This document shows, in pieces, positions 31,665 to 48,730 of a DNA stretch of 64,000 nucleotides (its first letter is position 1; each line of letters starts with the position of its first letter). Position numbers and translations under genes: made by a program. The stretch is from Chloropicon primus (lineage: Eukaryota; Chlorophyta; Chloropicophyceae; Chloropicales; Chloropicaceae). The stretch spans positions 124,001 through 188,000 of the forward strand of contig CP060772.1 of NCBI GenBank assembly GCA_023205875.1. Reading direction: 5' to 3'. Under the pieces are notes generated by a model that ran no database searches, was not told where the DNA came from, and was given only the letters and a program-made list of their open reading frames with translations.

Positions 31665-32660
31665 TCACCGAGAGTTCAAGTGTCCAGAAATCTTCTCGTA
31701 AATGATCCATGTCATGACAGTTGCAGGCGAGAGCTGAAGCACCCTGAGTTGCAAGCCAGCAAACAGTCCTTTCATGCCTTCTTTCCTCCACAACTGCAAT
31801 GCGCTGCCTCGTATGCCCACATTCGTACCCCCCTCCGCACGCTCGAGTATTCCAGGAGGAAGGGCTTGCATTCTTGTTTTCAAGACATCAATGGGGTGAG
31901 TGCACACACATGCCACCGCGCTCGCTGCCGCCGCGCAAGCACCCAAACGCATCCAGTTGCTGCCCGCCTTCTCCGCTTGTTTGCCAGGGACTTCAGAGTC
32001 TCCGGACAATGCCAAGTCTTTCAGAGACTCGTAGGTCGATATATAAACGGTGCTCCAAGGAACCCAAAGCATGTTGCCACGCCAGTACCCTCTCATGAAC
32101 ACGCTCAAACCTTCCTTGTTGGCAATCCGTTTCACAAGTTCGGTGGTCGTGTACAACCGGTCTTGTTGCCCACTCGCCACAAGAGAGGCTTGCACCTGCA
32201 TCCTTTCCTTCGTGATGTCTACGGGGGTGTAGATAACATTGGCGAAGAGCTGAGCGCTTATGCCGCAAACTGCGCCCTGCAGCCCGGCGCTCTTCCCAAG
32301 GCCCAACTCTCTCACCACCGAACTGTCTTGAAACGCATCCGACTGGAACACAGCTTTGCCGAGTTCATAACCGAAGAAGTACGTCGCACTCCCAGGTATC
32401 GTGCCAAGCAAAGCAACGTGGACCCCGGGAAAGAAACCCTTCAGGATCCCGTGGGATCTCCACGTGCGCGTCACCGCATTCGCCCAGGTGGTCCTCCCCT
32501 CGACACTCGTCGTCAAGGTCGCTCTCACTTGCGACCTTGACTTCAGTGTCTCCAGAGGGTACGTCACTAACCTGGGAAGCAGGCCGGAGAACGCTCCACC
32601 CAATGCTCCAAAAGCAAGTTTCTTCAAGTCCTCCGCACCACCACCTCCCTCCCTTGCCAT
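31665..32660 (-). CDS. Mitochondrial carrier family (SLC25) transporter
   Basis: Single exon, 331 residues. Three carrier repeats are visible through their signature Px[DE]xx[KR] motifs: YPLETLKSRSQ, TPVDITKERMQ and HPIDVLKTRMQ, with six membrane helices. Carriers of this family exchange metabolites across the mitochondrial (sometimes plastid) inner membrane. The first repeat (GGAFSGLLPRLVTYPLETLK) resembles the SAM-carrier and related groups, but contact residues cannot be assigned by eye. Convergent with the Myb gene (117-nt gap). Confidence 0.88.
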   Translation of the reverse strand: MAREGGGGAEDLKKLAFGALGGAFSGLLPRLVTYPLETLKSRSQVRATLTTSVEGRTTWANAVTRTWRSHGILKGFFPGVHVALLGTIPGSATYFFGYELGKAVFQSDAFQDSSVVRELGLGKSAGLQGAVCGISAQLFANVIYTPVDITKERMQVQASLVASGQQDRLYTTTELVKRIANKEGLSVFMRGYWRGNMLWVPWSTVYISTYESLKDLALSGDSEVPGKQAEKAGSNWMRLGACAAAASAVACVCTHPIDVLKTRMQALPPGILERAEGGTNVGIRGSALQLWRKEGMKGLFAGLQLRVLQLSPATVMTWIIYEKISGHLNSR

Positions 32661-44527: not shown

Positions 44528-44782
44528 TTACACATGTTTTGGTTCACGCAAGTGCTTGAGAAGGATGTTGCGTGCCCCGTTCGCATCCCGATCGCACTTG
44601 AAGCCACACTCCTGGCACTTGTAAACCTTTGCTCCACCCAGGTTCTCCTTGATGTGTCCGCACCTGCCACAGGTCTTGGAGGTGTACTCCTCCGTCACCA
44701 CCTTTCGCCACCATCCGTGTTGCTTTTCGTGCCGCTGGCCACGACAAGAGGCAGGGAAGGGCGAGAAGGGATCATCGAGCAA
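44528..44782 (-). pseudogene. TnpB/Fanzor C-terminal zinc-ribbon remnant
   Basis: An 84-codon open stretch without an ATG. Its last about 60 residues match the end of OrfB/TnpB and eukaryotic Fanzor nucleases: EEYTSKTCGRCGHIKENLGG, then KVYKCQECGFKC, then DRDANGARNIL. These are the CxxC...CxxC zinc ribbon and the final RuvC Asp segment (DxDANGARN). The rest of the nuclease (wedge, REC, first RuvC motifs) is not found in the next 2 kb upstream, which holds tandem repeats and the leader of another gene. A pyrimidine-rich CTTGTCGTGGCCAG at about 44741-44755 on this strand looks like a 3' splice site, so it may once have been a last exon. As a nuclease it cannot be functional alone. Confidence 0.8.
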
Positions 44783-45369
44783 ACCTTTCCTCCTCCTCCT
44801 CCTTCCTCCATGGAATGGACTCTCTCTCCTCCTCCGTCAATCAAGTGATGGCTCTTTGGAAAGAGAGCGAGAGAGACCAAGACCAAGACCAAGAGACACA
44901 TACACATGCAATGGATGGATCAATCCCGATCCCCTCCTCTCCTCCCCCTGCTTCATCCCCCTGCTTCATCTCCTCTGTACTTCCTCCTCATTCTCATCAA
45001 GTGATGGCTCTTTGGAAAGAGAGCGAGAGACCAAGACGAAGACCAAGACCAAGACCAAGATCAAGAGACACATACACATGCAATGGATGGATCAATCCCG
45101 ATCCCCTCTCCTCCCCCTGCTTCATCCCCCTGCTTCATCTCCTCTGTACTTCCTCATTCTCATCAAGTGATGGCTCTTTGGAAAGAGAGCGAGAGACCAA
45201 GACCAAGACCAAGACCAAGACCAAGAGACACATACACATGCAATGGATGGATCAATCCCGATCCCTTCCCTTCCCCCTTCCCCTTCCCTTCATTCATTCA
45301 TTCTCATCTCCTGATCTGCTCCATCTTCCTCTCCTTTGGATCGTCTTTCCTCGAAAGCCGCCGGCCGCC
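44783..45369. repeat. Three-copy tandem repeat (156/176 bp) upstream of AdoMetDC-ODC leader
   Basis: TCAAGTGATGGCTCTTTGGA starts at 44841, 44997 and 45173. Each unit then has a GAGAGACCAAGACCAAG tract of variable length, ACATACACATGCAATGG and a TCAATCCCGATCCC block. Period change (156 to 176) comes from expansion of the CAAGAC hexamer. The first part of each unit is the recurrent promoter element. Confidence 0.85.
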
Positions 45370-45978
45370 ATGGACCTGACGTGGACGTGTACATTTCCCA
45401 CTGTAGAGCCGGCCTGCGCCACGTGCTCGAGGAAGGTAAGAGAAAGCGATCACGAAGGCGGCTTGGATGGACACGATAGGAGATAAGAGAGGGATCATCG
45501 GATTCCTCGTCTCATCCTCTTTCGAAAGAGTCCGAGCTTGACCCATGGGACGTCATGATGAGGTCTGGGAGTTGCAAACACCATGGTTTGGAGCAAGTGT
45601 CTTGGGTCATCCTAGCCCATGAGTGGCGGAAATGGAAGGGGAGGAAGAAGGATGAGTCGCTTAATACCGGTATTACCGCAATCCTTGCCTCACGCTCTTT
45701 CGTTTGGTTACCCACATGACCCTTTTGACGTCAAGATCGAAGATGTTCTGACGGATTACTCGACATTCTTTCTTGGTGTCATCATGCAGGCCACAAGTGA
45801 TCACTGGTGGGGATCCCCTTTGCGTTTCGGTTTTGAAGGATTCCGGTGCTCGGAGCATTGGAGAAAGTTCTGGAGAAGATCTTGATCCAAGGAGAGGAGG
45901 AAGAGTTTGGTTGCTTTTGACTTTTTGGTATTAGTATTATTTTCTCTTTTGCAAGTGCAGCGCTGGAATAGGCTGTGA
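45370..45978 (+). promoter_or_regulatory. Putative first uORF of AdoMetDC-ODC mRNA (27 codons, spliced)
   Basis: GCCGCCATGG at 45370 is a strong start context. The 22 codons to 45435 (MDLTWTCTFPTVEPACATCS and on) are followed by a GTAAGAG donor. The best acceptor before the main ORF is CTCTTTTGCAAGTGCAG ending at 45960. Joining them adds five codons and TGA at 45976-45978, 17 nt before the second uORF. The intron (525 nt) contains another open stretch (45619-45885) with no recognised domain. The splice is inferred. Confidence 0.4.
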
Positions 45979-45995
45979 ACTTGCTCTCACTTGTT

Positions 45996-46154
45996 ATGGA
46001 AGGGGAGTCAAGTGAGTCGGAGTCATCACTACCGTTTCAGTTGACAAGTAACTTTGCAGTGTATGCAGCAGACGTGAGCGATTTGAGGCAGTGGGGGATT
46101 GTAGCAAAGTACTGCGACAAGGGCTACGAGGACTGCGTGAAGATTCCCAGCTGA
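45996..46154 (+). promoter_or_regulatory. AdoMetDC-type conserved uORF (52 codons, ends Pro-Ser-stop)
   Basis: ATG at 45996, TGA at 46152-46154, 71 nt before the AdoMetDC-ODC start. The C-terminal part WGIVAKYCDKGYEDCVKIPS aligns without gaps to the end of the plant AdoMetDC small uORF (pattern GI..K....Y..C.K.PS then stop, from family knowledge). That plant uORF stalls ribosomes when polyamines are high and represses AdoMetDC translation. Shared positions are the final Pro-Ser, Lys at -4, Cys at -6, Tyr at -9, an aromatic at -14 and Lys at -15. Its place directly ahead of an AdoMetDC frame makes chance similarity unlikely. Confidence 0.75.
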
Positions 46155-46225
46155 TAGTGGGTGGGTGAACCAAAGAGTTAGAGAGAGGGTTAGAAGTTAG
46201 AGAGTTAGAGAGAGAGAACACCACG

Positions 46226-48730
46226 ATGACTGGAACATTTTTCCCTCAACCGATTTTTGAGGGGGCGGAGAAGCGCCTGGAGCTGGACTTCGAGCTGGCC
46301 TGCCGGTCCGTGGAGGAAGTGATGGTGGTGGAGAGCGCGGACTCTGACTCCGAGGCCAGCTGCGGCCTCCGTACTTTGAAAGAGGCCGAGTGGAACAAGC
46401 TCTTGCAGCCCGCTGAGTGCTGCATCGTTTCCAGCAAGAGCAACGGGTACTGCGACGCGTACTTGCTGAGCGAGTCTAGCTTGTTCGTGTACGAGTCGAG
46501 GGTGGTGCTGAAAACGTGTGGGAGGACGAAAATTTTGGACGCGGTGCCAGGGATCGTCTCGGCCGCCTTGGAGAACCAGCAAATCGGCTTGAAGCTGAGG
46601 AGGGCCAAGTACTCGAGGTCAGCTTTCAAGTGCCCCGAGCAGCAGCCAGAGCCCCACACGAACTTTTCGCTCGAGGTGGAGGCCCTGAACGGACTCTTCG
46701 GTCACCTGAAAGGCGGCGGGCATGCCTACGTTCTGGGTGACCAGGTGAGCAACGCCCTGTGGCACGTTTACACCGCAGGGCAAGTCCAAGAAATGATCAT
46801 GGAGTCGAGGATCGCCAAGGAGGACCTGATGACCCTTGAGATATGCATGACTGGTCTGGACAGCAAGTACTGCGAGCAGTTCACGTGCGACGCGAATTCG
46901 AACTTGAAGGGAACGAAGAAGAAGCTGAGAACGGAGAGCGGCATTGAGAAAATGCTTGGCTCCCAGGAAGCCATCGACGACTACGTGTTTGATCCTTGCG
47001 GGTACTCCCTCAACTCGGTGAAGGGGGAGACTCTGGTCACCATCCACATCACCCCCGAGGACAGCTTTAGCTATGCCAGCATCGAGGTCTGCGGGATCAA
47101 GAGGTCCGAGGACTTCGACTCGAACGCGTTTGTGCAGCTCGTGGCCGATCTGTTCAAGCCCCAAAGCTTGTACGTCGTGGCAACGTGCGACGGTTTCGCC
47201 TCAGCTTTGGAGTGGTGCGACTGCAAGCTTGGCCACTCTGAGCCTGGCGCGGGCTCCGGGCAGATGTTTGAGAAGCTGTTCTCAGCCAACCAGGTCATGA
47301 CTAGGTACGGCAACTGCGCCTTCCACGCCTTCGCTTCCGATGGCGTGAGGGAGGAGTTCGGCTCTGGCAACATGGCGGCCAAGCTCGACAAGCCGCCTTT
47401 CTCGCCAATCACTGTTCTCAGGGAGGACGGCATGTCCTTCTCCGACTCGTCCAGCAGCGGCAGTAGCGAAGAGGCCCAGAGAGACGAGACTCTCCTTCCT
47501 TTGAGCGAGTCTGACATGGACACCAATTTTGTGAAGCGTGTTAGGGCGGACACGATCGAGACGTCCAACTGCGTCGAAAGATACGCGGGCTGCAAGATCA
47601 GGGAGTTGGGCCTTGAGGACACTTTCTACGTCTTTGATCTGGGCAACGTTTACCGGAGGATGAAGACGTGGCAGAGGCTCTTGCCTAGGGTAAAGCCCTT
47701 CTATGCGGTCAAGTGCAACCCTGATCCGGGCGTGCTTTCCACCCTGGCGTCCCTGGGCACTGGTTTTGATTGCGCATCCCAAATGGAGCTCGAGTCCGTC
47801 CTGTCCCTCGGAGTTTCTCCAGATTCGGTGGTCTACGCGAACGCCTGCAAGCGACCCAGCGACCTCAGGCACATGAGGCAGACCGGAACCCTCTTGACCA
47901 CCTTTGACTCGGAGAGCGAGCTCCTGAAGATCAAGCAGTACCACCCCTCTGCCCAAGTCGTGCTGAGAATCAGGGCAGACGACCCGAACGCGCGGTGCTA
48001 CCTTGGCAACAAGTACGGGGCCGAGACTTACGAGGTGGAGCACCTGCTGAGGAAGACCATCGAGCTCGGGCTGAACCTCGTTGGAGTCAGCTTCCACGTG
48101 GGAAGCGGCGCGAGCGATCCAGAGGCCTTCAGAATGGCCATTGGCCTGGCCAGGCAGGTTTTCAACGCCGCCCTGGCGCTCGGGATCACCACGATGGACT
48201 TGCTCGACATCGGAGGAGGCTTCAGCGGGGGCACGGGCGACGGCACCGAGGCCTTGGGAAAAGTGGCGAGAGTCATCAGAGCGAGTCTTGACAAGCACTT
48301 TGGGGAGGAGGGAAGGTACAGGATCATTGCGGAGCCTGGGAGGTACTTCTCCGAGGGAGCCTGCTCCCTCTTCACTTGCGTCTATGGCAAGAGGAGGAGG
48401 GAAGAAAAGATGGAGTACTGGCTCACGGACGGTCTCTACGGTTCGATGAACTGCGTGATCTACGACCACGCCAAGCTCGCTCCCAAGCCGTTTTTCCTCA
48501 AGTCCTCGGCGCCCGTGGAGGACCTGGACTTGTATTCTTCCACCCTCTTCGGGCCAACTTGTGATGGCTTGGACACCGTGCTCAAGGACGTGATGATGCC
48601 AAGGCTCGACAACGGGGACTGGATCATTTTCCCTGCGATGGGCGCCTACACCATCTCGGCCGCTTCCAACTTCAACGGCATCTCTGCCTGCGACCCACAA
48701 ATCTTTTACGTGGTGTCCAAGACAGAATAA
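46226..48730 (+). CDS. Bifunctional S-adenosylmethionine decarboxylase / ornithine decarboxylase
   Basis: Single-exon fusion of 834 residues: AdoMetDC (about 1-400), a short Ser/acidic hinge (about 405-450), ODC (about 451-834). AdoMetDC part: FEGAEKRLEL with both N-terminal Glu, self-cleavage site LLSESSLF (cut predicted between Glu83 and Ser84, making the pyruvoyl group), catalytic KTCG Cys98, GYSLN Ser about 260 and IHITPE His about 274. Spacings equal the human enzyme (68, 82, 229, 243). ODC part: PLP Lys about 496 in PFYAVKCN, SFHVGSG, DIGGGF, EPGRYF and catalytic Cys about 779 in GPTCDGLD. All key residues are intact, so both activities are expected, giving putrescine and decarboxylated AdoMet. 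The same domain order is known from apicomplexan parasites. Confidence 0.95.
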   Translation: MTGTFFPQPIFEGAEKRLELDFELACRSVEEVMVVESADSDSEASCGLRTLKEAEWNKLLQPAECCIVSSKSNGYCDAYLLSESSLFVYESRVVLKTCGRTKILDAVPGIVSAALENQQIGLKLRRAKYSRSAFKCPEQQPEPHTNFSLEVEALNGLFGHLKGGGHAYVLGDQVSNALWHVYTAGQVQEMIMESRIAKEDLMTLEICMTGLDSKYCEQFTCDANSNLKGTKKKLRTESGIEKMLGSQEAIDDYVFDPCGYSLNSVKGETLVTIHITPEDSFSYASIEVCGIKRSEDFDSNAFVQLVADLFKPQSLYVVATCDGFASALEWCDCKLGHSEPGAGSGQMFEKLFSANQVMTRYGNCAFHAFASDGVREEFGSGNMAAKLDKPPFSPITVLREDGMSFSDSSSSGSSEEAQRDETLLPLSESDMDTNFVKRVRADTIETSNCVERYAGCKIRELGLEDTFYVFDLGNVYRRMKTWQRLLPRVKPFYAVKCNPDPGVLSTLASLGTGFDCASQMELESVLSLGVSPDSVVYANACKRPSDLRHMRQTGTLLTTFDSESELLKIKQYHPSAQVVLRIRADDPNARCYLGNKYGAETYEVEHLLRKTIELGLNLVGVSFHVGSGASDPEAFRMAIGLARQVFNAALALGITTMDLLDIGGGFSGGTGDGTEALGKVARVIRASLDKHFGEEGRYRIIAEPGRYFSEGACSLFTCVYGKRRREEKMEYWLTDGLYGSMNCVIYDHAKLAPKPFFLKSSAPVEDLDLYSSTLFGPTCDGLDTVLKDVMMPRLDNGDWIIFPAMGAYTISAASNFNGISACDPQIFYVVSKTE

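Follow-up and report, generated by a model that had tools for sequence, protein, structure and literature searches.

The locus

The DNA under study, called the window below, is a stretch of 64,000 nt from the genome of Chloropicon primus (contig CP060772.1). Its plus strand carries an upstream ORF (uORF) closely followed by an ORF in which AdoMetDC and ODC are joined. The features discussed here and the analyses on which they rest are the following:

45996..46154, plus strand: 52-codon uORF with TGA stop, candidate for an HG3-like CPuORF (translation, start context, C-terminal ranking)
46092..46154, plus strand: C-terminal 20 codons of the uORF, WGIVAKYCDKGYEDCVKIPS, and stop; stretch resembling the plant AdoMetDC uORF (C-terminal scoring, shuffles, codon usage)
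46155..46225, plus strand: ATG-free spacer of 71 nt between uORF stop and main start codon (sequence reading)
46226..48730, plus strand: AdoMetDC-ODC fusion ORF, 834 aa, predicted bifunctional polyamine enzyme (ORF, Pfam, PDB, NCBIfam)
46253..47206, plus strand: AdoMetDC (SAM_decarbox) domain, residues 10-327, with the LSESS site and Ser84 at 46475-46477 (Pfam, motifs)
47207..47614, plus strand: linker composed of the remainder of AdoMetDC and a Ser/acid-rich hinge (by exclusion)
47615..48718, plus strand: ODC domain, residues 464-831, with the motifs PFYAVKCN, HVGSG, DIGGGF, EPGRY and CDGLD (Pfam, PDB comparison)

Translation of 45996-46154 yields a peptide of 52 residues that ends with WGIVAKYCDKGYEDCVKIPS in front of the stop codon. 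This stop is a TGA immediately followed at its 3' side by an in-frame TAG. According to the coordinates, the uORF is read in another frame than the main ORF. Its ATG has a G at -3 and a G at +4. The sole other ATG between the uORF start and the main start is located within the uORF at 46063 and opens a 4-codon ORF in a different frame. The uORF ATG is preceded by TT, and no ATG is present between 45784 and 45996. An overlapping tiny uORF whose stop would share a base with the uORF start is absent from the leader sequence. The N-terminus of the peptide is acidic and not Lys-rich, with the first Lys at residue 38. K/R account for 3 of the last 16 residues and S/Y for 2 of the last 12. A search of the peptide against its own genome (E up to 10) returned only the self-match. 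The fusion ORF starts 71 nt past the uORF stop and is uninterrupted over 834 codons, which confirms the original prediction of a 52-codon uORF ahead of a fused polyamine enzyme.

Three further elements were observed around the leader. Within the uORF, a 48-nt sequence GTGAGT...TTTGCAG (window 46012-46059) could be removed as an intron with preservation of both frame and C-terminus. On the minus strand, a 102-aa stop-to-stop frame at window 44531-44836 comprises a TnpB/Cas12f-type zinc-ribbon fragment (PF07282, E 2.8e-15) with a DRDAN motif. It appears to be what is left of the 3' end of a putative Fanzor/TnpB-like element, located upstream of the polyamine gene. Between this remnant and the uORF leader lies a tandem array (window 44874-45278) of ~2.5 copies of a 160-bp unit with 93% matches.

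The AdoMetDC-ODC fusion

Pfam places SAM_decarbox (PF01536, E 3.9e-88) at residues 10-327 and the ODC-type models PF02784 (E 2.7e-73) and PF00278 (E 3.2e-18) at residues ~471-806. The presence of all three on one 834-aa ORF bears out the claim that AdoMetDC is fused to ODC. The N-terminal part exceeds the cut-off of the NCBIfam AdoMetDC model TIGR00535. In the PDB, residues 464-831 are related to human ODC (chain 1d7k, E 1.1e-99), and the AdoMetDC part to 1mhm (E 1.2e-42) and 1msv (E 3.3e-40), which we take to be the potato and the human AdoMetDC chains, respectively. The AdoMetDC part carries LSESS, presumably the proenzyme cleavage site with Ser84 as its serine, along with the motifs KTCG, PCGYS and TIHITPE. 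In the C-terminal half, PFYAVKCN, HVGSG, DIGGGF, EPGRY and CDGLD are presumably the catalytic motifs of ODC. Since both enzyme domains and the motifs to which we assign these catalytic roles are found within one ORF, the fusion is apparently an intact two-enzyme polypeptide predicted to be active.

With the chain species as assumed above, the AdoMetDC part shares 41% identity with the potato segment and 38% with the human segment. Its Lys128 corresponds to Arg in the potato and to Phe in the human chain, its Leu201 to Val in the potato and to Asp in the human chain. Provided that positions 128 and 201 are, as we assume, residues that separate the putrescine-independent plant AdoMetDC from the human enzyme, the AdoMetDC part looks plant-like.

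The polyamine pathway in the genome

The genome (17,584,162 bases in 20 contigs) was searched in six frames, exon by exon. One AdoMetDC was found, the fusion, and no second ODC was detected. The ODC/DAPDC/ADC fold occurs in three proteins. Besides the fusion, these are L003, a diaminopimelate decarboxylase of LysA type that exceeds the TIGR01048 cut-off, and a homologue of biosynthetic arginine decarboxylase (L004, C3). The latter reaches 572 bits vs a cut-off of 369 with NF003763 and 545.7 bits with TIGR01273, below the cut-off of 624.1. An ORF of the agmatine-deiminase family (L007, C8; PF04371) was found as well. Because L004 and L007 are homologues of arginine decarboxylase and agmatine deiminase and are located on chromosomes other than that of the fusion, a second putrescine route, from arginine, is probable and would bypass the uORF sensor. 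For comparison, a 2018 review names Chlorella as the only microalgal genus with a complete ADC/AIH/NCPAH route (PMC6356823). The idea of a single sensor above both AdoMetDC and ODC holds insofar as the uORF precedes the only AdoMetDC and the only ODC detected; the suggested putrescine bypass narrows its reach.

Two adjacent stretches on C6 match the aminopropyltransferase family and are probably one gene, and a spermidine-synthase-like ORF is present on C20 (L008). The antizyme model PF02100 had no match in the genome. Control genomes were equally silent, so that the absence of an antizyme is not established.

The C-terminus of the uORF peptide

The yardstick consisted of three C-termini that we assume to be those of plant AdoMetDC uORFs. 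Each stop-to-stop stretch on either strand of the window contributed its longest ATG-ORF, and the resulting 465 ORFs of 15-150 aa were scored backwards from the stop codon; the 19-residue scoring took in 419 of them. With each of the three assumed C-termini, the uORF ranked first, whether the last 9 or 12 residues (465 ORFs) or the last 19 (419 ORFs) were compared. Its lead over the next ORF is wide for the last 19 residues (34-36 vs 10-17) and narrow for the last 12 (25-27 vs 21-22). Random peptides with ORF composition attained the uORF score at rates between 0/200,000 and 9e-5, and the rate for the last 19 residues is <=5e-6. When the full-length uORF was shuffled, the observed score was reached in 2/5,000 cases locally and in 0/5,000 globally. 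In block-wise shuffles, significance was confined to the C-terminus (p 0.0002 vs 0.10 for the N-terminal part and 0.08 for the middle). Significant similarity to the assumed plant peptides does not extend beyond the last ~20 residues. Full-length alignment was not accepted as stand-alone evidence, as unrelated ORFs scored 51 and 46 vs 51 for the uORF. Since the ORF at 31799, although unrelated, has the same full-length local score as the uORF, the C-terminal result alone was used.

Aligned without gaps from the stop codon, the uORF shares 7 of 19 residues with the assumed Arabidopsis C-terminus by hand count, namely G, K, Y, C, K, P and S, and the changes Y/F, D/N and V/I are conservative. The predicted in-register match to the plant C-terminus is therefore correct for K, Y, C, K and PS, but 'GI' requires a shift by one residue.

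Codon usage was evaluated with a model built on 15 long ORFs from the window. The fusion is one of them, and they are ORFs rather than verified genes. Synonymous usage in the last 20 uORF codons scores 3.85, compared with a coding mean of 3.98 and a composition null of -4.54 (p 0.011). Under the composition null, codons 2-32 are not coding-like (p 0.31), and the whole uORF has a p of 0.036. For the last 16 codons, a stretch picked after viewing the sequence, p is 0.00055. Coding-like usage in the last 20 codons next to non-coding-like usage in codons 2-32 is what a uORF conserved at its C-terminus would show, a modest indication. In a local-composition control, the last-20 value ranks 17th among 102 small ORFs outside long ORFs, some of which are possibly real exons. 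Owing to this rank, codon usage was counted as weak evidence for translation. When the codon score is not restricted, a stretch of the leader at 45846 that belongs to no ATG-ORF of that frame reaches 16.7 vs 12.3 for the uORF. Overall, the last 20 codons show a coding-like but unexceptional codon bias. It is weakly compatible with selection on the C-terminus and by itself no proof of it.

Relationship to homology group 3

Homology group 3 (HG3) comprises the AdoMetDC uORFs, which are 50-54 aa long in Arabidopsis and rice and have conserved termini (Hayden and Jorgensen, 2007; PMC2075485, lengths in Table 6). The same publication describes HG3 as far as Ulva and lists a Chlamydomonas entry, AJ841703. 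A green-algal member is therefore to be expected, and the occurrence of an HG3 uORF in green algae, known since 2007, is nothing new. Judged by DNA position, the C. primus uORF is located directly upstream of the AdoMetDC coding part. Its 52 aa fall within the length range, and its C-terminus displays the conserved residues up to ...PS-stop when compared with the assumed plant peptides.

The HG3 composition described in PMC2075485 includes a Lys-rich N-terminus (4/9) and a C-terminus with 4-5/16 K/R and 4-5/12 S/Y. The C. primus peptide has neither the Lys-rich N-terminus nor these C-terminal densities of K/R and S/Y. An overlapping tiny uORF has been described for Arabidopsis SAMDC1 and SAMDC2, with SAMDC3 having the small uORF only (PMC5745906). 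The C. primus leader lacks the tiny uORF, as does Arabidopsis SAMDC3. Because the missing composition features derive from Arabidopsis and rice, they leave room for an algal homologue and at the same time lower the claim of plain membership. The uORF is best described as a probable, divergent relative of HG3, short of proven membership. What had been predicted as a plant-type polyamine-responsive uORF thus has the plant AdoMetDC-type C-terminus, the right length and the right position, whereas the angiosperm N-terminus, the K/R and S/Y densities and the tiny uORF are missing.

Host lineage and search for relatives

The host, C. primus RCC138, is a chlorophyte green alga. The uORF had been called the best argument for a Viridiplantae lineage; the lineage is right, but the identity of the host is the stronger argument.

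Among the viral contigs searched, the fusion protein had 14, the uORF peptide 10 and the AdoMetDC alignment 220 pattern matches, none of which was confirmed. Among the genome contigs, the AdoMetDC alignment had 29 matches, of which one was confirmed, in a Bdellovibrionota MAG; no algal copy was among them. In phages, tblastn returned four records that aligned over the ODC half of the fusion only. A relative with a comparable AdoMetDC leader was not found among the viral contigs, genome contigs and phages searched. The Bdellovibrionota sequence (JAURDE010000061.1, L006:3992-5781) is a eukaryotic-type pyruvoyl AdoMetDC with an LSESS site and 30% identity. It adjoins an ORF that by eye resembles an aminopropyltransferase.

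In the literature searched, most subscription journals being outside its scope, neither a report of an AdoMetDC-ODC fusion in a green alga nor the combination of uORF and fusion was met among the matches listed, and a prior mention is possible. The passages of PMC12803844 that were consulted contain no AdoMetDC-ODC fusion. The word 'polyamine' has 0 occurrences in the main texts of two Chloropicon genome papers, none of the papers listed in a further search mentions Chloropicon, and fragments of the plant peptide yielded nothing relevant among the matches listed. The less expected part of the locus is an HG3-like uORF ahead of a fusion that holds the only AdoMetDC and the only ODC detected in the genome.

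Proposed mechanism and alternatives

We consider it rather probable that the uORF is the green-algal homologue of the plant AdoMetDC CPuORF (HG3) and acts as a polyamine sensor in the leader of the fusion mRNA. This reading starts from the ORFs, the domain content, the lack of a second detected AdoMetDC or ODC and the C-terminal resemblance. That the uORF is present in the mRNA, translated, able to stall ribosomes and responsive to polyamines would be expected by analogy to plant work. A single mRNA would contain the uORF in its leader and the fused AdoMetDC-ODC as main ORF, and scanning ribosomes would translate the uORF. At high spermidine/spermine, a ribosome arriving at the stop codon would be held there by the nascent C-terminus, KYCDKGYEDCVKIPS. 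The held ribosome would in turn block downstream initiation or scanning to the main ATG and might trigger mRNA decay. At low polyamine levels, termination would be quick. As there is no tiny uORF, escape under these conditions would have to come from leaky scanning or from reinitiation over the 71-nt spacer. With ODC and AdoMetDC joined in one polypeptide, the synthesis of the two would be set by a single sensor.

Three other explanations have to be weighed. The best of them, in our opinion improbable, is that an HG3-descended uORF only represses, having lost the polyamine response or responding to another ligand such as thermospermine. The missing HG3 features, i.e. the N-terminal Lys-rich tract, the C-terminal K/R and S/Y density and the tiny uORF, would agree with such a loss, and so would the C6 aminopropyltransferase-family stretches besides the spermidine-synthase-like C20 ORF. 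The residues that have been kept, however, adjoin the stop codon, the site of the polyamine-responsive arrest reported for the Arabidopsis AdoMetDC uORF (Uchiyama-Kadokura, 2014).

It is still less likely that a downstream transcription start or the removal of an intron puts the uORF outside the mature 5' leader. Sequences resembling 5' splice sites do occur at 45436 and, within the uORF, at 46012 and 46074, and introns are present in 36-37% of the genes of C. primus according to Table 1 of PMC12301720. Yet the plant-like end (46092-46154) is only 71 nt away from the main ATG, and by sequence reading the 48-nt intron at 46012-46059 would keep frame and C-terminus. Likewise, an intron from 45436 to an acceptor within 45786-45996 would spare the uORF while it drops the upstream ATGs, which are listed in the leader region from 45467 to 45784.

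Equally doubtful is that an ordinary short ORF has a plant-like end by chance: an unexceptional codon signal (rank 17/102), an unrelated ORF with the same full-length local score and the small last-12 margin would fit, but no other ORF compared exceeds 17 over the last 19 residues vs 34-36 for the uORF, random peptides virtually never do as well (<=5e-6), and the resemblance falls in the one leader where the HG3 family is expected.

If the uORF is indeed an HG3-type polyamine sensor, gene fusion has extended a nascent-peptide sensor to a second enzyme, and this in a compact marine picoalga. The HG3 peptide would then be placed in the Chloropicophyceae, a deep chlorophyte branch. In addition, a divergent natural variant with 7/19 identities to the assumed plant end would narrow down the residues needed for polyamine-dependent arrest. 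An evolutionary scenario, to which we give slightly less than an even chance, is that an ancient, polyamine-sensing uORF of plant type gained control of two key steps in spermidine synthesis in the Chloropicon lineage, via the fusion of ODC to AdoMetDC. A single switch would have replaced separate controls of the two enzymes, and the fusion would be independent of the apicomplexan one.

Comparison with known systems

In Plasmodium, AdoMetDC comes first in the fusion, as in Chloropicon, and the hinge is longer than the Chloropicon hinge. We know of no conserved uORF in Plasmodium. The Chloropicon fusion differs from the P. falciparum enzyme by its green-algal host and by AdoMetDC residues that we take to be plant-type. 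Common to both is the presence of the two enzymes on one chain, described for P. falciparum as bifunctional ODC/AdoMetDC (PMC10216422).

The mammalian AMD1 MAGDIS uORF is, like the Chloropicon uORF, located upstream of AdoMetDC, and a spermidine-dependent pause occurs at its stop codon (PMC13025110). It encodes, however, an unrelated peptide of six residues.

The plant counterpart is the HG3 CPuORF (Arabidopsis AdoMetDC1-3, rice). It is likewise located directly upstream of AdoMetDC, and the position of its stop codon relative to the Y..C.K.PS end, with the plant peptide as assumed here, is the same as in the Chloropicon uORF. The plant N-terminus is Lys-rich, whereas that of the Chloropicon peptide is acidic and not accompanied by a tiny uORF. 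Moreover, the plant CPuORF precedes AdoMetDC alone, whereas the Chloropicon uORF precedes an AdoMetDC-ODC fusion.
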